Shown here in pieces: positions 3,542-21,583 of a stretch of 36,743 bases of DNA. Origin of the DNA: Acidobacteriota bacterium (GTDB lineage Bacteria; Acidobacteriota; Terriglobia; 2-12-FULL-54-10); assembly GCA_016199675.1 (NCBI GenBank), contig JACQGE010000112.1:1-36743 (forward strand), read 5' to 3'. Below the pieces are notes generated by a model. That model had not been told where the DNA came from. It ran no database searches and worked only from the letters and a program-made list of their open reading frames with translations. Each line of letters opens with the position of its first letter. Position 1 is the stretch's first letter. A program made the position numbers and the translations under genes.

Positions 3542-4237
3542 ATGGAGAACTACTTCAACTATTTTACGGAGATTGAAGAATACTTTTGGAAAAAGCGAGG
3601 CACTACGTTGCTCGTCTCCACGCTGGATTGGGCGCTGATTGATTCCTGGAAACAGGCGCAGATTCCCCTGGAAGCGGTTTTGAAAGGCATTGACCGGGCC
3701 TTTGAAAAATTCGAAAAGCGGCGGCAAAAGGTGCGCCAGGTCAACTCCCTGGCCTATTGTCATCAGGAAGTTCTGCTCGCGGCGGAGGAATCACAGCGCA
3801 CCCAATTGCCCCATCCTTCTGGCGCGGAGGCCTTTCCTCGGGAAAACTTAGTGACGTTCCTGGAGGGAAACGCCGAAGCTGTAGGTAGGGCGGCCGGCCA
3901 ATTCGCGGAGCAGGGGAAACCGGAATCGGCAACGAACTTCCAGCAGATTGCCCATTCACTGCGTGAACTGGCGGCGACAGTCCGAGCAGCCAGTACGCTG
4001 GACCTGGAGGAAACCGAACAGCGGCTTACAGTGCTGGAGGAAAAAATGTTTTCTGTTCTTTTCCAAAACGCCGAGGAGCGGGAATTGGTCGCGATCCGTC
4101 AGGAGACGGACCGGGCACTGGCCCCCGTTCGACAAAAGATGAGCAGCGAGCAGATCGCCCATTTGCAAAAACAATTCCTGAATCGAAAGCTGCTCGAAAA
4201 GGCTGGCCTGCCGCGACTCAGCCTGTTCTATTTATAG
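3542..4237 (+). CDS. Conserved-looking hypothetical protein (231 aa)
   Basis: Long ORF between coaX and the methyltransferase on the same strand; charged, helical composition. Confidence 0.75.
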   Translation: MENYFNYFTEIEEYFWKKRGTTLLVSTLDWALIDSWKQAQIPLEAVLKGIDRAFEKFEKRRQKVRQVNSLAYCHQEVLLAAEESQRTQLPHPSGAEAFPRENLVTFLEGNAEAVGRAAGQFAEQGKPESATNFQQIAHSLRELAATVRAASTLDLEETEQRLTVLEEKMFSVLFQNAEERELVAIRQETDRALAPVRQKMSSEQIAHLQKQFLNRKLLEKAGLPRLSLFYL

Positions 4238-4320
4238 AGTCATCATAGCCGCGCCTCCCGAGCGGGGCCGAAGGGACCGGAAAAGGGCGAAGATTCAGTT
4301 CGCGAGCTAATTCAGTTGAG

Positions 4321-5619
4321 GTGATCCCAATGCCGCCGGAAACGGAGACCGCCGAAAAGGTTCTCGATGTGGCCATCGAAAAAATGGTCTATGGCGGGGA
4401 GGGTCTGGCGCGCACCCCTCAGGGAGTTTTGCTCGTAGCCGGTGTTTTGCCGGGTGAGCGGGCCAAAGTGCAAATTGAAGAGAAACGGCAGGGGGTTCTC
4501 CGGGCCCGCCTTTTGGAAGTGCTGGTCGCAAGTCCGGATCGAGTTGTCCCGGAGCATCCGTACTTTTCCCGCTGCGGTGGTTGCGTCTATCAGCACCTCT
4601 CCTACCTTCGTCAGCTTGAAATAAAAAAAGAAGTATTACTGGAATGCCTGGAGCGGATTGGCAAGCTTCATTTGGATATGCCTGTCGTGATGATCCCGTC
4701 CGAGCCTTGGCACTATCGCAATCGCAGCCGCTTTCAGATCAAAAAGGAGGCCTCTGTTTTTCAGATCGGTTATTTTGAGGTTTCCTCGCACCGCCTCTGT
4801 GCTGTTGAGCGTTGCCCGCTCAGCCCTCCTGCCATCAACGCCGCGCTGGAACAATTGAACCAGGGGGTAGGCGCTTCCTGTTTTCCAGAAGGCAGGTCCG
4901 AACTCGAACTCTTTGCTTCCGATTCCGGGCAGGCATTGCTGGCCTCTGTTTATTCTCCGGCGCTTCCACAAGAAAATTTTGGAGAGGTACTGATGACCGC
5001 CATCCCGGGCCTCGAATCCGTTGGCTGGTTTGAGAAGCCTTCGAGGCGGCCAAAGACCTGGGGGGCGGGAGCGATTACATACCATGTCGGCGAATTCCAC
5101 TATCGCATCAGCCACGATTCTTTTTTCCAGCCCAATCGGTTTCTTCCGGAGGCGATGATTTACGCCGTCCTCGGCGACCTGGAGGGAACGCGGGGGCTGG
5201 ACTTGTATGCGGGAGTCGGATTCTTCACCCTTCCCCTAGCGCGGCGATTTGAACAGATGACGGCGGTGGAGGCTCACGGAGCCTCGGCGCAGGACTTGAA
5301 AAGCAACGTGGGAGTCGTCGGAACACGGGCTCGCGCCTATCATAGTAGCGTTGAGAAGTTTCTGTCGGCCACCTCGCGGAATTGGGATGCGCTTGTCGTG
5401 GACCCGCCCCGCAACGGCCTGAATCGCGTTGTGATCGAGCACCTATGCCGCCTGCAGCCAAAACGACTGGTTTATGTTTCTTGCGACCCGACAACTCTGG
5501 CCAGAGATTTGAAAGCCCTGTCCGGGGGCGCCAGGTATCGCATCCGGTCTCTTCATCTGGTCGACCAGTTCCCACAAACATTTCATCTGGAAACCGTGGT
5601 TCACTTGGAGGCTAACTAA
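4321..5619 (+). CDS. RlmD/RumA/TrmA-family RNA (uracil-5-)-methyltransferase
   Basis: TRAM-like N-terminus, FeS-type CGGC cluster (FSRCGGCVYQHL), GLDLYAGVGFFTLPLA, VDPPRNGLN, LVYVSCDPTTLARDL. ATG at 4330 is an alternative start. Confidence 0.93.
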   Translation: MIPMPPETETAEKVLDVAIEKMVYGGEGLARTPQGVLLVAGVLPGERAKVQIEEKRQGVLRARLLEVLVASPDRVVPEHPYFSRCGGCVYQHLSYLRQLEIKKEVLLECLERIGKLHLDMPVVMIPSEPWHYRNRSRFQIKKEASVFQIGYFEVSSHRLCAVERCPLSPPAINAALEQLNQGVGASCFPEGRSELELFASDSGQALLASVYSPALPQENFGEVLMTAIPGLESVGWFEKPSRRPKTWGAGAITYHVGEFHYRISHDSFFQPNRFLPEAMIYAVLGDLEGTRGLDLYAGVGFFTLPLARRFEQMTAVEAHGASAQDLKSNVGVVGTRARAYHSSVEKFLSATSRNWDALVVDPPRNGLNRVVIEHLCRLQPKRLVYVSCDPTTLARDLKALSGGARYRIRSLHLVDQFPQTFHLETVVHLEAN

Positions 5620-11423: not shown

Positions 11424-12080
11424 TTAAGCGGTCGGCGAACCATGTATTTGCTGCTTCAGGGTGGTGTCGTCACCGAGTATTTGCCTAAACTCTTGCTCCA
11501 GGGCTCGCCTCGCGGCAGGAATCTCTTGCTTCACTGAATCCCATGCCTGTTCTAAAATCTTCCATTTTTTCTGAAGCGTCTCGTTTGTAGGATGCTCGAT
11601 GCTTTCATAAACACCAACTTCAATTGTGAGTTTCCGCAAGTCCGTGAGGAATTTCGCAAGCTTATTGCAGAGCGATTCAGGGAGATAGATTCGGTGTTGA
11701 TCAAGAAAACGTAAGCACTCTACAATTTTGTTCCATGTCGGAACGTATTTCTCTTTTCTACTCGGCTCACCTTCAAAAGGTTGGACGAAATCTTCAATCG
11801 CCCAAGTAGTCTCGGCGAGATACTTATCCAATTGAGCGATTACCTCAGCCCGCTTTTCGTGAAGCTTCGAGAATCGGACCTGATGCTCGTATGCTGCGCG
11901 TTGCAAATCAGCCTTCAATCTCTCGATAGCCGTGTCCGAGGTCGATTTGAGTTCAACCTTGAACTTCTCCACGTCCTTGTCCAACCAAGCCCTGATTACC
12001 GAGCGCGCAAGGAATGCCACAATACCCAAGAGGATGGTGGGGCCACCGAAAGAGATCAGTACTGAAGTCCAAGGATCCAT
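11424..12080 (-). CDS. Hypothetical membrane-anchored coiled-coil protein (218 aa)
   Basis: One N-terminal TM (VLISFGGPTILLGIVAFLARSVI) then long helical region; bracketed by hairpin copies B and C. Confidence 0.7.
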   Translation of the reverse strand: MDPWTSVLISFGGPTILLGIVAFLARSVIRAWLDKDVEKFKVELKSTSDTAIERLKADLQRAAYEHQVRFSKLHEKRAEVIAQLDKYLAETTWAIEDFVQPFEGEPSRKEKYVPTWNKIVECLRFLDQHRIYLPESLCNKLAKFLTDLRKLTIEVGVYESIEHPTNETLQKKWKILEQAWDSVKQEIPAARRALEQEFRQILGDDTTLKQQIHGSPTA

Positions 12081-12138: not shown

Positions 12139-13225
12139 AGCGGCTTTCGATGAAAACTTGCTTGTCGCGTACGATCTCAGATTCCACAGCCAGCAGTTCA
12201 CGAATTGCAGACAACACCTCTTCGGGGCTGATGCGGCTCATCACCTCGGCGGGCATCGCAGAGTGCTGGTAAGAAGTTGGGGCGTTGTCCGGTCGCAGCG
12301 ATTTCGTGCGCTCGCCGTAGGGGCCATTGCGCTGGGGGTCAGTAGGCCCAAACAAGGCCACCGTCGGAACGCCTAGCGCAGCGGCCAGATGCGAAGGCCC
12401 AGTGTCCGAACCCACCATCAAGCGGCTTCGCCGCAATAAAGCAATCAAACCCAATAGGCCGCCGCCGTACAGAAGCGGCTTCGCGGTTCGGCAAACTGCC
12501 TGCACTTCCGCTGCCAGCGTTTCTTCCCCTGGCCCGCAGTTGAGCACCACGCGAAAACCAATTTCTTTTTCCAGCGCATCCGCCACTTGTCCATAACTTG
12601 CCGCAGGCCAGCATTTGGATCGCCAGCCAGCGCCAGGGTTCAGCACCGCTATATTGTCGCGGGGAAAGCCAGCCGGAAGCTGATCCGGCTCTCCTGCTGG
12701 AAGGGGAAAGCGGATGACCGGATGGCGGGCGCCGAGCGCAGCGGCCAGCGCGAGATTAGCTTCCACGGCGTGGACTGCTCGCGTGGCCACGCGGCGTGTA
12801 TAAAGCACGCTGCCAGCCGCCTCCTTCACCCAGGGGCTGTCAAAGCCGATTACCTCAGAAGCTCCGCTCAACCGGCAGGCCACAGCCGACTTGAGCGAGC
12901 CTTGCAGGTCCAGCGCGCAATCATACCGGCGCTCGCGTAATTCCCGAATCCTTTGCCGGAAGGCAATCCAGGTTTCGTCGGAAAGCAGTCGCCGTCTCCA
13001 AACCAGCGTATCGAGTTCCACGATTCGATGCAGGTCAGGATTTCCTTCCAGCAGAGGCCGCCAGCGGCTTTCTATCAGCCAATCTATCTCCCACTGCGGA
13101 AAGTTTTCTTTGAGCGTGGCCAGCGCCGGAAGGCTGTGGATGATATCACCCATAGAGCCGAATCGCACAATCAGGATTCGCCGGATATTTGACGAATTCG
13201 TGAGAATGCCTATTTGCGGAATCAT
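12137..13225 (-). CDS. waaC: Lipopolysaccharide heptosyltransferase I-like (GT9)
   Basis: RRILIVRFGSMGDIIHSLPALATLKENFP, LNPGAGWRSKCWP, GSDTGPSHLAAALGVPTVALFGPTDPQRNGPYG. Confidence 0.9.
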   Translation of the reverse strand: MIPQIGILTNSSNIRRILIVRFGSMGDIIHSLPALATLKENFPQWEIDWLIESRWRPLLEGNPDLHRIVELDTLVWRRRLLSDETWIAFRQRIRELRERRYDCALDLQGSLKSAVACRLSGASEVIGFDSPWVKEAAGSVLYTRRVATRAVHAVEANLALAAALGARHPVIRFPLPAGEPDQLPAGFPRDNIAVLNPGAGWRSKCWPAASYGQVADALEKEIGFRVVLNCGPGEETLAAEVQAVCRTAKPLLYGGGLLGLIALLRRSRLMVGSDTGPSHLAAALGVPTVALFGPTDPQRNGPYGERTKSLRPDNAPTSYQHSAMPAEVMSRISPEEVLSAIRELLAVESEIVRDKQVFIESR

Positions 13226-14649
13226 ATAGAATTACTTGTCGCTACGTCTGGATACTCACGTTCCATGCCGCGCATCTGTGTCGGGCTAACTAGAATCCCG
13301 AGTTCCTGTTGCAGTGCTCGAGCCGTTCTATCGTTTTCGTCTGTCCAACATCGTGCATTGATATAAACAGCGTCTTCAGAGCGTGATTGGTTGTCTATCC
13401 CAGATTCGGTTGCAATACCAACTATGTCCAAAGCTTCGGGGAACTTTGTTTTCGTTACCTGACAGCAAGCTTTCAAATAGTTTAATCTGGCGGTTCTATT
13501 GGTCTCGTAAGAATGCTTTGGCGAAACCGGAAACAGCAAGAACACGTAATATGGATATCCTATCTTTGAAGGGACGATGACGCGTAGAGCACGAATATTC
13601 GGCGGGGTGCTTGCAAGGATTTCTTCGATAGCCCTTCCGAGCATCCGCCGTCTTGTTCTTGACTCCCGGGCCAAAAAGCGCATCGTAGTTTCGATCGTTG
13701 TGACAGCGGCGGGCCAGCAATATTCTTGTGTTCCATTCAGAGCGTTGTAATTAAATGTCTCGATCAGACGGTCCCAAAGATAACTGACGTCATTTGCTTT
13801 AATTTGGGCCAAACGCTGCGGGTTTTTCTCGAATGCTTTCCAAAAACCTTCCTCCAGAATAATGCAATTGAATTCTTCAGGAAACACAAAGTCGTGCTCG
13901 CCATTTGAATTCATGTCCTTGAGGTAGCAAGCTAATAGCTCTTCCTCACCAGCGGCAGCAATTGTTTTTCCCGAGCGCAGCAATTCCTCTTTCTTTCTCA
14001 GATATGCGGTGAAATCTGAGATAGTATCCAGTGTTTGCAACAGTATGTTTAGCGATGCATCGTCCAAAACGTGGATGAAACTTTTTCTCGGATCAAGATC
14101 GCCTATCATGAAGGGAATGCAATGATTCGAAGCTCCCCTCAGATCGGTATCAATCATCAAACTACCGCTGCCTCCTAATTCCTGTGCACATCTCCTGGCG
14201 ACATCGTGGGCAACAACAACCAAGTGAAATCGCGCTTGTCTGGAGGGCACACTAAAGGGAAATCGCTGCGTGCAGCCACCATCGAGGAATAATCTTTCGG
14301 GATAAGACCTGATCCATCGTTCTGCTCCCCATGCTTGGTGAGCCGACTTGGTGATAGCATGACGAAACCAACGACTCCATTCAAGTTCGAGATTGCCAGT
14401 TTCTGGGAAGCTACAATACTTGTCCGAAAAAATGATGATGTCCTCTCCAAAAACTACCAGAAGGTCACAAACCTCTTTTCCAATGGTATGAGTTCCGGAT
14501 CGCTGGTCTCGATAGACGGTGGGATAACTCCATAGAGTCAGGAATGTGCTGTCGCAAAGCCTCTTTAGATAGCGTTCTGCCGGAGTGACACCTTCTGAAC
14601 GCTTAATTGGCGACCAATGAGGTTTCTCCGATGAGGTCATTTGAGCCAT
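13222..14649 (-). CDS. Unknown protein with nuclease-like N-terminal signature (about 475 aa)
   Basis: ERYLKRLCDSTFLTLWSYPTVYRDQ...GKEVCDLLVVFGEDIIIFSDK; ATGA overlap with waaC. Start set at 14649 because the ORF-track start (14688) lies inside hairpin D. Confidence 0.72.
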   Translation of the reverse strand: MAQMTSSEKPHWSPIKRSEGVTPAERYLKRLCDSTFLTLWSYPTVYRDQRSGTHTIGKEVCDLLVVFGEDIIIFSDKYCSFPETGNLELEWSRWFRHAITKSAHQAWGAERWIRSYPERLFLDGGCTQRFPFSVPSRQARFHLVVVAHDVARRCAQELGGSGSLMIDTDLRGASNHCIPFMIGDLDPRKSFIHVLDDASLNILLQTLDTISDFTAYLRKKEELLRSGKTIAAAGEEELLACYLKDMNSNGEHDFVFPEEFNCIILEEGFWKAFEKNPQRLAQIKANDVSYLWDRLIETFNYNALNGTQEYCWPAAVTTIETTMRFLARESRTRRRMLGRAIEEILASTPPNIRALRVIVPSKIGYPYYVFLLFPVSPKHSYETNRTARLNYLKACCQVTKTKFPEALDIVGIATESGIDNQSRSEDAVYINARCWTDENDRTARALQQELGILVSPTQMRGMEREYPDVATSNSI

Positions 14650-14678
14650 TGCATTTACTCCCTTGCGAAATAGCTGGA

Positions 14679-14709
14679 GCCACGGCAAGCGCTCTTTCTC
14701 GCCGTGGTC
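14679..14709 (+). repeat. Hairpin repeat copy D (CCACGGC-N14-GCCGTGG)
   Basis: Perfect 7-bp stem 14680-14686 / 14701-14707; left arm like copy A, right arm like copy C. Confidence 0.8.
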
Positions 14710-15907: not shown

Positions 15908-17059
15908 TCATGCCCCGCCAAACCCGATCTTCGTCGCGACCTTCGCCGGGTCCGTGCCTGCTTGCAAAAATTTGCCATCCATTCCCAGGCGCTCTCCCAG
16001 CCCGTGCAGGAATTCCTCCTCTTGCTCCAGCACCGGTTCAATCGCGGCCCAATAGATTGGCGTCTGTAAGCTGGCATTTTCTGGCAGGTTCACCCAATCC
16101 TTTTCTGTCGTCACCAGGCAGTCGGCTTCATGTTTCCGCGCTAGTTTTTCTAGTATCTCCAGATCGCGCCGCGTATAGCGGTGATGATCTGGAAAGACTC
16201 TTGCGGCGGCTATGCTGAGTTCGTGCGGCTCCACCACGTGAAGCCGATCCGCTGGAAACATCCCCAGAAAGTTTTGTGGACTCCCCAGTCCGCAAAAAGC
16301 CACAGCACGCCGTCCCGCCAATGTATCGGGAGTTGTGATAATTCCCCGTGAGTCCACGAATCCCAGCAGCCGTGTGCTGGCGCTGAAAAACGGTACGTCC
16401 ATATTCAGGCGCAGCACTGCCCCCTTTAATTCGCGCAATGCGGCCGTGCTCTCTTTTGACGTTCTTGCTCGGTCGCAGTGGGTCAGCAGGATGGCATCTG
16501 CCCGCCGCAGCGCCGCCGGTCCCTCCCGCAGCAATTGAGGGAAACTGCCACGGCTGCCCCAAGGATTTCCCGCGTCGACCAGAACCAGATCGAAATCGCG
16601 CGCCAAAGCCATGTGCTGGAAGCCATCGTCCAGCAAATGCACATCCACAGGAAATTGATCTTCCACAGCGCGCCCTGCTTCGTAACGGCAAGAGGCAATT
16701 CCAATCGGGACCTCCAAATGCCGCAGATAGAGTTGCACTTCGTCTCCATCGCACAAGGCATTTCTTGGTGAAGTTCCTGGCGGAAGTACTTCCACTTTTT
16801 CCCGCGAGGTGCGGCCATAACCGCGCGTCAAAATGGAGACGTTTATCCCCGCAGTTTGCAGGCGGCCTGCCAGCCAGATAGTAAAAGGTGTTTTGCCGGT
16901 TCCGCCCCAAGCGATGTTGCCGATGCTAATGACTTTGGCTCGGAGGCGGCGCTGCGCCAGCAGCCCGCGCTGGTACAGTTGCACGCGCACGCTGGCCCCG
17001 GCGCTCCAAAGCGCCACTCCTCCCGATGCTAACTGCGCGATAGGAAACACCGGCCTCAC
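15908..17059 (-). CDS. lpxK: Tetraacyldisaccharide 4'-kinase
   Basis: VISIGNIAWGGTGKTPFTIWLA, ILTRGYGR, VHLLDDGFQHMALARDFDLVLVDA. Confidence 0.95.
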   Translation of the reverse strand: MRPVFPIAQLASGGVALWSAGASVRVQLYQRGLLAQRRLRAKVISIGNIAWGGTGKTPFTIWLAGRLQTAGINVSILTRGYGRTSREKVEVLPPGTSPRNALCDGDEVQLYLRHLEVPIGIASCRYEAGRAVEDQFPVDVHLLDDGFQHMALARDFDLVLVDAGNPWGSRGSFPQLLREGPAALRRADAILLTHCDRARTSKESTAALRELKGAVLRLNMDVPFFSASTRLLGFVDSRGIITTPDTLAGRRAVAFCGLGSPQNFLGMFPADRLHVVEPHELSIAAARVFPDHHRYTRRDLEILEKLARKHEADCLVTTEKDWVNLPENASLQTPIYWAAIEPVLEQEEEFLHGLGERLGMDGKFLQAGTDPAKVATKIGFGGA

Positions 17060-18438
17060 TGAATCTCCCCAGCGCCCATGACGGCTTGTGCCAGGCGCTC
17101 CTGGTCCTGAATTGATGACGAATCTTTGCCCGTCAGCAATTTTCCCAACTCCTCCGCGACCATGCTGGCGCCGCTGGCGTTCTTCTTGACCAACTCCTGG
17201 GCTGCCTCACCCAGTCGGCAACTAAAGTCGGAATTGCGGAATAAAAACCGCAGCGTGGCTGTGAGGTTCCCTGCGTTCTGAACCTGCGCGATAGCTCCGG
17301 TGCGAACCCCTGATACCCTTGGGATTTGCCCCACGCCCGTATCTTCGAGAAATTTGTACTCAATTTCCCGAAAGTTCTTCATGGAAGGGCCGATAACAAT
17401 GGGTCGCCCAAAGTAGGCCGGTTCCAAAACGTTGTGTCCGCCCGTCGGTACCAGCGTTCCTCCCACAAAGGCAACGGTGGCCAATTGATAGACGTCACCC
17501 AACTCCCCAATGCTGTCCAGCAGCAGCACTCCAGGAAGCGGAACCATTGTGCGCCCCTGGAGTTCCGATCGCCGTTGTAGCGGGATTTCCATCCGGCGGA
17601 TTTCTTCTGTCACCTCCGAAAAACGCTCTGGATGCCGAGGGGCTAGGATCATCCACAAATGAGGAAATTCCTGAGCCAACTCTCGGAACGTTGCGAGCAA
17701 ATACGTTTCCTCTCCTGGCATCGTGCTGCCCGCCACCAGCACCGGTCCCGCTGCTGAAGCCTGCACCATTGCCCGTAACGTTTCTACAATTGGCGCTGCA
17801 GCGGGGCGAAAGGCAAATTTAAAATTCCCAGCCACGCGAACTTTCTCCGCTGGAGCGCCCAGGGCCAGGAAGCGTTCGGCGTCGCCCGGGGTCTGCGCGA
17901 ATAAAACGTCCGGCAGAGACAAGACTCGCCGCCAGAGCCAGCGACTGGACCGGTAACGGGGGAAGGCTCTGTCCGAGATGCGTCCGTTGGCTACGAACAA
18001 GATCGCACCGCAACGTTTGACCTCTCGAAACAGGTTCGGCCACAACTCCGTTTCCAGCACGACCAATGCGTTCGGTCGAATCTTCCGCAGGAACCGTCGG
18101 CAAACTCCTTTCAAATCCAGAGGCGGGAACAAAACCTCTTCCGGCGCAAGTCGCCGCCGCGCCTCTTCCCAACCCGTGCGCGTGGAAGTTGTCATCACAA
18201 TGCGAATGCCCGGAACGCGGCTCTTCAATTCTTCCACCAGCACGCTAGCCGCTTTCACCTCTCCCAGAGAGACTGCGTGAAGCCAGACGCAAGGCGTCGC
18301 TGCCAGAGATTCGGAAAGGGAAAGGAACCCCAGCCGCTGTCCTAACCCAGCCAACCGCCCTCGCAGAGCGCGGTAGGCCAGCCAGGGAATCAGCAGCGGG
18401 CTGGCCAGCCACAGCATCAAGTTGTAGAGAAAGTACAT
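17056..18438 (-). CDS. waaA: 3-deoxy-D-manno-octulosonic acid transferase
   Basis: VWLHAVSLGEVKAA, TTSTRTGWEEARR, VLETELWPNLFRE, GGHNVLEPAYFGRPIVIGPSMKNF; start taken as MYFLYNLMLWLASPLL. Confidence 0.94.
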   Translation of the reverse strand: MYFLYNLMLWLASPLLIPWLAYRALRGRLAGLGQRLGFLSLSESLAATPCVWLHAVSLGEVKAASVLVEELKSRVPGIRIVMTTSTRTGWEEARRRLAPEEVLFPPLDLKGVCRRFLRKIRPNALVVLETELWPNLFREVKRCGAILFVANGRISDRAFPRYRSSRWLWRRVLSLPDVLFAQTPGDAERFLALGAPAEKVRVAGNFKFAFRPAAAPIVETLRAMVQASAAGPVLVAGSTMPGEETYLLATFRELAQEFPHLWMILAPRHPERFSEVTEEIRRMEIPLQRRSELQGRTMVPLPGVLLLDSIGELGDVYQLATVAFVGGTLVPTGGHNVLEPAYFGRPIVIGPSMKNFREIEYKFLEDTGVGQIPRVSGVRTGAIAQVQNAGNLTATLRFLFRNSDFSCRLGEAAQELVKKNASGASMVAEELGKLLTGKDSSSIQDQERLAQAVMGAGEIQ

Positions 18439-18501
18439 AAATGCTTCGATTATAGCGTGTCCCGTACTTCTTGCTGTTGGAAATCGTGAGGTGTGGATCA
18501 C

Positions 18502-18529
18502 TTGTCAACGTGGCAATGTCTGGTATACT
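18502..18529 (+). promoter_or_regulatory. Putative sigma70 promoter TTGTCA-N16-TATACT with TGG extended -10
   Basis: Upstream of ATG 18565; implies that the ORF-track start at 18493 is not used. Confidence 0.6.
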
Positions 18530-18564
18530 TTGGTCAAAATTTCAACCAGGGGAACTTCTGGCGC

Positions 18565-20076
18565 ATGCTTAAGTTCTGGCATCCCATTTGGGTCACAGCG
18601 GTGCTGCTCGGCGCGGCAATCGCCCTTCCAGCGCAATCCGTGCGCGTCAGCGATCTCGCTGCCGGTAAGCTGCTGGTAGCGCGGCCTGATGCTACGGACT
18701 CGTCCTTCGCCGAAACGGTGATTTTGCTTGTCGAGTACGACGAGCATGGCGCGTTTGGCCTGGTGATCAATCGCAGGACCAAGGTGCCGATTTCTCGGGT
18801 GCTTCAACAACTGGAGGGCGCTGATAACTGGTCCGACCCGGTCTATGTAGGCGGCCCGGTAGCGATGACAGGGGTGCTCGCCCTGCTCCGCTCACGCGAC
18901 GCCAAGCCGGAGGAGTTGAAACCCGTCCTCGGTGATATTTACTTGGTTTCCAGCAAGCCGCTTCTCGAAAAGTTCCTGGCGGAAGGACCGGCAGCCGCAC
19001 AGTTGCATGTTTACCTGGGATACAGCGGCTGGGGTGCCGGGCAATTGGAAAACGAAGTGAACCTGGGTGCTTGGTACATCTTCGATGGCAAGGCCGATCT
19101 GGTCTTCGATGCCAACCCCGCCTCGCTTTGGGGCAGGCTCATCGCTCGAACGGAACAACGATACGTCAATGCGCCACCACCGCTTCCGAAAACCCTCACT
19201 GGCGTCTCAGCGGACGGCGGCGATTCCATTCCAGGGACATTAAACCTCATGGCCGACTACAAACGAGACACCGACGGTATATACGTTCCAATCGTCGCCG
19301 TAGCCGCAATTGACATCCTCGGAGTAAAGCAACTTCTATTGAAACCGGACTGCTCCCTTTCGGCCATGAAGGTTTTGAGCAAATTTGTATTGAACGCCTC
19401 CTCGCCTGAAATCTTCAAAGACTCAAACGTTTCTGAGAAGGTGGACCAGATGTTTGAAAAGGATCTTTATTTCGGTGATTCTGTCTATCTCTTTGCCGCT
19501 AGTTCACTCGACCCGGAAATACAGATTCAATGGCTGGTAATCCGTGTGGCAACCTTAATAGCTTTGGGTCTTTGGAAGGAACCCCGATTTCTAGTCAGGG
19601 CGGGCATTGCTATTGGTGACCTTCGCAAGCGTGTAGTGAAGGGTGGGGGCAGCCCCCACGAGATCAGAATTGGTTCCTCAATGCTGAAAGCTCATCAGCT
19701 TCAAGAGTGCCAGAATTGGGTAGGAGCCGTCGTTGATGCAGCGGTGCCACAGACACCAGAAGTTGCAAATTGGACATTCGATTATTCGGTGCCTGTGAAA
19801 CCGGGATGCGACGGCCTGCCTTTACCTTTGAATTGGATATGGGAAAATTCTCTGGACGGAGAAGTTGAATCGGAACTCGTACTCGCATCCAATGAAATCA
19901 GTTTGAATCAAGACGCGCAGACGAAGTTGGATAATACCTCGAAATTCGTTCAGTCGATACGTACTGCAAAGAAATTAGCCCCTTTTTTTCGGCCAGATAG
20001 CTCTTCGCAATGGGGGTACAAACGAATTTTCCCTGCCAAGGGAGGGGGTAATGAAGCTGACTTACTGTCGCGGTGA
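18565..20076 (+). CDS. YqgE/AlgH (UPF0301)-family protein fused to a C-terminal class III cyclase-like domain
   Basis: N-terminus: signal-like segment plus LAAGKLLVARPDATDSSFAETVILLVEYDEHGAFGLVINRRTKVPISRVL, VYVGGPVAMTGVLALLRS. C-terminus: IVAVAAIDILGVKQLL, YFGDSVYLFA, FLVRAGIAIGDL, IRIGSSMLKAHQLQECQNWVGAVVD. Confidence 0.85.
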   Translation: MLKFWHPIWVTAVLLGAAIALPAQSVRVSDLAAGKLLVARPDATDSSFAETVILLVEYDEHGAFGLVINRRTKVPISRVLQQLEGADNWSDPVYVGGPVAMTGVLALLRSRDAKPEELKPVLGDIYLVSSKPLLEKFLAEGPAAAQLHVYLGYSGWGAGQLENEVNLGAWYIFDGKADLVFDANPASLWGRLIARTEQRYVNAPPPLPKTLTGVSADGGDSIPGTLNLMADYKRDTDGIYVPIVAVAAIDILGVKQLLLKPDCSLSAMKVLSKFVLNASSPEIFKDSNVSEKVDQMFEKDLYFGDSVYLFAASSLDPEIQIQWLVIRVATLIALGLWKEPRFLVRAGIAIGDLRKRVVKGGGSPHEIRIGSSMLKAHQLQECQNWVGAVVDAAVPQTPEVANWTFDYSVPVKPGCDGLPLPLNWIWENSLDGEVESELVLASNEISLNQDAQTKLDNTSKFVQSIRTAKKLAPFFRPDSSSQWGYKRIFPAKGGGNEADLLSR

Positions 20077-20123
20077 GAGACGGCGAGCCTTTGGCGACGC
20101 TTGACCCAGCCCTTGTGGACGTA

Positions 20124-20411
20124 TCACGCTGCGGCCAATTTCTCCACGCGCAATCGCTTCCGATTCTTTTCTGCGCGCCACAAGTCATATTGAAGCTGCT
20201 GGTTGAGCCAGCTTTCGGCGCTGGTGTTGAGGGCGATGGAGAGACGGACAGCCATTTCGGGACTGATGCCAGCGCGCCCATTTAGGATGCCGGAGAGCGT
20301 CTTGCGGCTCACGCCCAGAGCACGCGCAGCCTCCGTGACGGTTAGATTTAGAGGCTTCAGGCAAAGCTCCCTGAGCACTTCACCCGGGTGTGGTGGATTA
20401 TGCATCTTCAT
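20124..20411 (-). CDS. higA: HigA/VapI-family HTH antitoxin
   Basis: [74 protein letters not shown]. Confidence 0.94.
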
Positions 20412-20420
20412 GGATCACCC

Positions 20421-20702
20421 CTAATGATAGTCTTCGTAGTCCACATGGTCGGCGTTTTTGCCGGCCCAACTAAATGTAACGCGCCAGTTGCCGCTTCCCT
20501 TGACAGCCCACGTATCCTTTCGCCTGCCGCGAAGCTGATGGAGACCTAAAGCGGGCAGGTTCATGTCGCGGGAACTCGTTGCGGCGTTTAGGCGACCAAG
20601 GATCAGTCGGAGCCGGTCAGCGTGTTTCGCTTGAATTCCCGATGTGGCTCCCGTGGCGAAGAACCGTTCGAGTCCTTTGTGTCGAAATCCTTTGATCGCC
20701 AC
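20421..20702 (-). CDS. higB: HigB/RelE-family toxin
   Basis: IKGFRHKGLERFFATG...LGRLNAATSSRDMNLPALGLHQLRGRRKDTWAVKGSGNWRVTFSWAGKNADHVDYEDYH; toxin precedes antitoxin as in higBA. GTG start. Confidence 0.93.
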   Translation of the reverse strand: MAIKGFRHKGLERFFATGATSGIQAKHADRLRLILGRLNAATSSRDMNLPALGLHQLRGRRKDTWAVKGSGNWRVTFSWAGKNADHVDYEDYH

Positions 20703-20710
20703 AGATGCTT

Positions 20711-20739
20711 AGTGTAACCCATATAGTTACAGGTTGCAA
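20711..20739 (-). promoter_or_regulatory. higBA promoter (TTGCAA-N17-TACACT) containing operator-like palindrome TGTAAC-N7-GTTACA
   Basis: Minus strand reads TTGCAACCTGTAACTATATGGGTTACACT; palindrome at 20713-20731 spans the spacer into the -10. Confidence 0.65.
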
Positions 20740-20818
20740 GTCACAGCATCGCCATTCTTTCATGCTGACTTGACATCCTGTTCCCCCTTCAGCCATCCTC
20801 AATTAACGAATAATTGCT

Positions 20819-21583
20819 ATGGAACAACCCCTCGACATTCTAGCCTTTGGCGCGCATCCCGATGACATTGAACTCTGCTGTGGCGGGACGCTGATTCTGC
20901 TCGCGAACCGGGGCTATCGCGTGGGCGCGGCGGACCTGACTCGTGGCGAACTCGGCACGCGCGGGACGGAAGAAATCCGCGCCAAGGAATCACTCGCCGC
21001 CAGTAAAATCCTGAGAGTCTGCGTTCGTGAAAACTTGGGCATCCCGGACGGGCATATCGAGAACAATCAAGAGAACCTCCTGCGCGTGATTCGACTCCTC
21101 CGCCAGTACCGGCCCCGCTTGGTGCTGGTCCATCATTGGGAAGAGAGGCACTACGACCACGTTCATGCCAGCCATCTGGTGGCCGAGGCTTGCTATTATT
21201 CCGGGCTGGCGAAGATCGAAACCGGCCAGGAGAGTTTTCGCCCTTTCCGGGCCTTGTTTTATGCAGGCCGGGTGGCCTTTCACCCCTCATTTATTGTGGA
21301 CATTTCGGAGACTTTCGCGGAGAAGATGCAAGCAGTGCGCGCTCACCGCTCCCAGTTCCATCGCGGAGTGGAGGAGGAAACTGCCGTGGAGCCGGAAACC
21401 TTCATCAGCACCCCTTATGCGCTGGAGGTTTTTGAAACCAAGGCTCGCTACTATGGCGCGATGATCGGGGCAAAATTCGGAGAGCCTTTCGCGATGAGGG
21501 AGGCCATCGAACTACGCGATCCAGTGGCCTTCTTCCGGGAATTCCCCGACACTCGGCTCCCCCATCTGTTTCCTTCTCCCTGA
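20819..21583 (+). CDS. bshB1: Bacillithiol biosynthesis deacetylase BshB1 (PIG-L/LmbE family)
   Basis: LDILAFGAHPDDIELCCGGTL, LTRGELGTRGTEEIRAKE, NLGIPDG, HHWEERHYDHVHASHL. Confidence 0.94.
   Translation: MEQPLDILAFGAHPDDIELCCGGTLILLANRGYRVGAADLTRGELGTRGTEEIRAKESLAASKILRVCVRENLGIPDGHIENNQENLLRVIRLLRQYRPRLVLVHHWEERHYDHVHASHLVAEACYYSGLAKIETGQESFRPFRALFYAGRVAFHPSFIVDISETFAEKMQAVRAHRSQFHRGVEEETAVEPETFISTPYALEVFETKARYYGAMIGAKFGEPFAMREAIELRDPVAFFREFPDTRLPHLFPSP

Follow-up and report, generated by a model that had tools for sequence, protein, structure and literature searches.

An apparently incidental joining of algH to a class III cyclase-like gene, and the unnamed family to which that gene belongs

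In the window, the whole stretch of 36,743 nucleotides analysed here, an AlgH domain and a class III cyclase-like domain are read in one open frame, and this fusion looks incidental. The explanation that we favour, with some rather than strong confidence, is that two genes read as one. These would be an exported AlgH and a complete, normally stand-alone cyclase-like gene, acquired horizontally in the slot between kdtA and bshB1, which would be translated from its own ATG and act in the cytosol in anti-phage signalling. As a working fused protein, AlgH-cyclase probably does not exist. The unnamed family of the cyclase-like half, together with its pairing with SIR2 genes elsewhere, is a more interesting result than the fusion. 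The features are collected in Table 1.

Table 1. Positions of the features described in the text (window coordinates unless a locus is given)
Feature	Position	Strand	Evidence or remark
kdtA, left edge of slot	17056..18501	-	PF04413; found in 7/7 genomes of the bacterial family
Signal-peptide-like leader of AlgH half, MLKFWHPIWVTAVLLGAAIALPAQ	18565..18636	+	read by eye from translation
AlgH domain, PF02622	18685..19149	+	residues 41-195, E 1.2e-33
Linker, 33 codons	19150..19248	+	where stand-alone AlgH proteins terminate
Internal ATG, probable own start of cyclase-like gene	19249..19251	+	21 codons upstream of metal Asp 1, as in stand-alone relatives
Class III cyclase-like protein, including stop	19249..20076	+	family profile, AlphaFold2 model, Foldseek, GC3 0.50
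Metal-binding Asp 1 codon	19312..19314	+	Asp in 33/33 family members having the column
Metal-binding Asp 2 codon	19477..19479	+	Asp in 36/37 family members
Invariant Arg codon of RAGIAIG	19597..19599	+	Arg in 37/37 family members
SSMLKAHQLQ helix replacing canonical Asn/Arg helix	19675..19704	+	Leu, Gln in window copy
HigA-like antitoxin, in slot	20124..20411	-	HTH_3 E 2.5e-12
HigB-like toxin, in slot	20421..20702	-	PF05015 E 3e-17
PIG-L / BshB1-like gene, right edge of slot	20819..21583	+	PF02585
kdtA-PIG-L/bshB1 intervals compared	window 18501-20819; L029:3693-6105; L030:1165-4962; L031:7483-7610		
SIR2_2 + cyclase-like pairs	L061:4129-5722, L083:5446-10746, L037:3281-8095	same strand within each	three unrelated genomes

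Both the AlgH half and the cyclase-like half are far beyond chance matches. The N-terminal half scored 116.7 bits against PF02622, for which the cut-off is 27, and covered positions 1-155 of the 157 in the domain; a second PF02622 search with this half gave an E value of 1.6e-34. An earlier sequence-only reading of the DNA had placed an AlgH/UPF0301 domain here, and this was confirmed. The half is 42-52% identical to stand-alone AlgH proteins from other genomes of the class, and no AlgH was detectable by PF02622 search in the other six genomes of the bacterial family. It begins with a leader resembling a signal peptide, and comparable leaders stand ahead of the domain in several related AlgH proteins (L002-L008, L095, L097 and L109, beside window 18565-19149). 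Judged from these leaders, the phylum probably has a class of AlgH that is exported, unlike the cytosolic YqgE/AlgH.

The C-terminal half gave nothing meaningful as a single sequence against Pfam, PADLOC or PDB sequences. Its structure was judged from an AlphaFold2 model, built on a nine-sequence alignment (pTM 0.71, mean pLDDT 67). When this model was compared with the PDB by Foldseek, all 50 of the matches listed were class III cyclases, the best with an E value of 4.4e-7, and they included the uridylate cyclases 7r65 and 8jsz. A profile of eight family members searched against PDB sequences placed 5o5k first (E 0.087) and 1wc0 third (E 0.49), both class III adenylate cyclases, with Asp aligned on Asp; this profile alignment is weak by itself. 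The predicted structure thus shows a class III nucleotidyl-cyclase fold, as the sequence-only reading had proposed from motifs. The PADLOC model for PycC matched neither the window copy nor seven relatives at E values up to 10.

The cyclase-like half belongs to a family with the motifs DILGF...FSDT...RGAIAFG...GkALleAYxxE, for which Pfam and PADLOC hold no model; searches of its members with NCBIfam, PADLOC and Pfam gave nothing meaningful. When 399 genomes of the class were searched with the window copy, one clear relative was found (L010, local E 2e-9), in which all motifs aligned. Through L010 the family opened to L013/L036, L014, L015, L016, the plasmid L019, the phage contig L020 and others. 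The window copy matches the family profile over its whole length and carries the invariant Asp, Asp, Arg and Gly. Its profile E value of 2e-68 arises by construction, as it was a seed member; the independent evidence is the pairwise match to L010 and the invariant residues. The family is patchy: members were found in 16 of the 399 genomes of the class and in 17 of 396 from the phylum. Nothing was found with the window copy by tblastn against plasmids and phages or by a scan of GTDB contigs, a kind of scan that is insensitive at this divergence. For pattern scans, the diversity within alignments A1 and A2 proved too great; alignments of two or three rows were usable and yielded few loci. A 52-aa match at L011 that contains a stop was discarded as probable chance. 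The family also has large versions of 737-1020 aa (L036:1113-3326, L037:3281-6343 and L083:8245-10746), in which about 100-190 aa precede the cyclase-like domain and a long C-terminal region follows it. This region had no Pfam match in L036 or L037.

We next consider the active site, which was counted over 37 distinct family members, with columns equated through the profile alignment to 5o5k and not by superposition. The window copy, like the family as a whole, retains the metal Asp and the Arg and Gly positions. RAGIAIGD and SSMLKAHQLQ, which the sequence-only reading had taken for cyclase landmarks, are present and align with the family motifs RGAIAFG and ALLEAYQLE. It had also placed both metal Asp at the codons of Table 1 and called the Asn/Arg helix changed, and both statements held. 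Asn was found in none of 35 members in the transition-state Asn column, and Arg in 9 of 35 in the Arg column. The columns for the base-selecting Lys and Asp/Thr are not conserved in the family and hold Leu and Ile in the window copy. As far as these alignments tell, the family retains the metal site and loses the remainder of the classical catalytic set.

Loss of the canonical class III Asn, Arg, Lys and Asp is what would be expected if the cyclase-like half gave no cyclase product, being either a remnant that has lost catalysis or a protein that only senses nucleotides. The window copy also lies on a long branch, with 2.97 changes per column in the tree, and no effector adjoins it. However, the metal Asp, Arg and Gly positions persist in both the window copy and the family, 275 codons are still open, and Pycsar cyclases vary in their base-selecting residues between clades yet keep the two Asp constant (PMC11224242). 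We consider a dead remnant or sensor possible, though rather unlikely. The placement of the window copy in the tree was without support, and it is not claimed as closest to the SIR2-paired clade.

The in-frame continuity described by the sequence-only reading stood: the frame at 18565-20076 (+) has 503 codons and a sole, terminal stop, and in a genome-wide search this frame extended uninterrupted over 528 aa. The openness of the joint is nevertheless not beyond chance. One of the two alternative frames over the 33-codon linker is likewise open, and an open joint is therefore cheap once the algH stop is lost. Among 37 other AlgH proteins, 36 end 7-31 aa past the domain and one ends 81 aa past it; the window frame runs on for about 308 residues, with 33 residues between the domain end and the internal ATG. 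Most stand-alone relatives of the cyclase-like half start no more than about 25 residues from DILGF. The SD-like AGGGA at this ATG is mediocre (-4.6 kcal/mol). GC3 is 0.70 in the AlgH half versus 0.50 in the cyclase-like half, and the codon-usage score is +0.10 before the joint and -0.08 after it, the latter a level reached elsewhere in the window only in accessory-looking genes. Low GC occurs elsewhere too, and part of bshA lies below the cyclase-like half. Two further window genes, 11424-12080 and 13222-14688, are low in GC (0.48 and 0.47) and atypical in codon usage amid otherwise lipopolysaccharide-type genes, and are probably accessory.

A genuine two-domain protein, in which AlgH would be the sensor or anchor for nucleotide signalling within one polypeptide, is very unlikely, even with no stop anywhere through both domains and with a Pro-rich stretch in the linker (19150-19248) that could act as a hinge. 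The sequence-only reading had raised a link between AlgH and nucleotide signalling through this fusion, and such a link was not supported. The architecture is found in this one genome: a second instance was absent from the 399 class genomes, the 396 phylum genomes and the 37 other AlgH proteins, and in no family locus fetched was AlgH joined to a cyclase-like relative. Outside the cytosol there is no NTP supply, and the AlgH leader would export a fused cyclase domain away from its nucleotides. The joint lies where AlgH proteins usually end, the cyclase-like half has its own ATG, the halves differ in composition, and the slot is empty in a related genome. These results indicate why the fusion looks incidental, and the AlgH fusion itself as a working signalling protein is most improbable. 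Were the AlgH link true, it would give AlgH a pathway, and the evidence speaks against it.

A sequence artefact was also weighed, in which the algH stop would be hidden by a wrong base or a short indel near 19150-19248 and the two genes would be merely adjacent. The source assembly is in draft form (198 contigs, completeness 86.6%), the window being one entire contig, and the +1 frame at the joint holds a TAA at 19241-19243, 5 bases ahead of the ATG, as in many operons. A stop so near in some other frame is, however, not rare by chance, and the flanks come from one neighbourhood; we regard such an error as unlikely. A gross assembly chimera was rejected, as both flanks share one neighbourhood in a relative, and gross misassembly is unlikely because both slot edges are in order.

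Comparison of the kdtA-bshB1 intervals showed a variable slot in the bacterial family, either empty or with differing accessory genes. In the related genome G002 it is empty, with about 130 bp from kdtA to the PIG-L/BshB1-like gene. A DUF5615 gene occupies the slot of G001, together with small neighbours and a possible CHAT-like gene. G004 has a gene for a large repeat protein there, and the window has algH, the cyclase-like gene and HigBA. No cyclic-nucleotide-gated effector was found next to the window copy, whose neighbours are kdtA, HigBA and the PIG-L gene.

Most relatives are encoded by genes standing alone, and they occur in phages, on a plasmid, in conjugative elements and in defence islands. 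Members lie on the phage contigs L020, L035 and L038 and the plasmid L019, and conjugation-type genes adjoin members at L066 and L068. On the viral contig L038 the member (3857-4720) lies immediately past the terminase large subunit gene, an odd spot for cargo. At three unrelated loci a SIR2_2 gene directly adjoins the member on the same strand, at about 30 bp in L061, 70 bp in L083 and 115 bp in L037. Among defence models, those for ThsA, PDC-S25 and Dsr were matched by SIR2 genes next to relatives. Other members have as neighbour the gene of a type I specificity subunit (L087), or directly adjoin a PD-T7-4-like gene (L084:1914-3501) or a PD-Lambda-4_A-like gene (L092:3615-8000); the SIR2-paired locus L083 also carries a DISARM-like methylase. 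A search of the open-access literature found no published AlgH-cyclase or SIR2-cyclase system.

From these neighbourhoods, the best-supported reading is that the family would be a component of anti-phage nucleotide signalling, and the SIR2_2 and cyclase-like genes form a candidate two-gene defence system. We tentatively suggest, at well short of even confidence, that an undescribed class III-type family with a changed active site acts with SIR2 in anti-phage defence of a Pycsar-like kind, in which NAD depletion would be set off by a nucleotide signal; the window copy would be a solo member captured behind algH. Invisible to Pfam and PADLOC, the family combines a predicted cyclase fold and a conserved metal site with unusual catalytic residues, and it is found next to SIR2 and further defence genes; it is thereby an immediate candidate for a nucleotide-signalling defence of a new type.

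In the favoured explanation of two genes reading as one, the cyclase-like gene would have arrived by horizontal transfer in the slot behind algH, and loss of the algH stop would have left it following algH in an open frame. Its protein would be translated from the internal ATG and act in the cytosol, where the two metal Asp and the invariant Arg may bind NTP. By analogy with the SIR2-paired relatives, it could then make a cyclic nucleotide, or serve as an NTP-binding switch, for signalling of the anti-phage type, and the fusion would have no function of its own. The mediocre SD-like site, the occurrence of low GC elsewhere in the window, the missing canonical catalytic residues, the lack of an adjoining effector and the long branch count against this explanation. 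Because of the last two, the activity of the window copy itself is less sure; given the long branch and the missing residues, it may be inactive.

We finally compared the frame with known systems. Its N-terminal half is a full AlgH/YqgE domain (PF02622, UPF0301) of the export-leader kind, differing from others of this family in the length that follows the domain. With class III cyclases (CyaC 1wc0/2bw7, mycobacterial 5o5k; PF00211) the C-terminal half shares the predicted fold, the two metal Asp and the motif order DxxGF ... D ... RxGIAxG ... GxxL helix, whereas the canonical Asn/Arg and base-selecting Lys/Asp are not conserved in its family and the window copy has no PF00211 match. Pycsar PycC proteins (7r65, 8jsz; uridylate/cytidylate cyclases) differ in that no PADLOC match was obtained, no TIR or transmembrane effector was seen adjoining, and some relatives are paired with SIR2; the predicted fold, the metal Asp and the defence-island setting of the relatives are the same. 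Compared with the SIR2 defence effectors ThsA of Thoeris and DSR, the partner is cyclase-like instead of a TIR protein and the window copy has no adjacent SIR2 gene, whereas the SIR2 genes near its relatives match the models of these same effectors.
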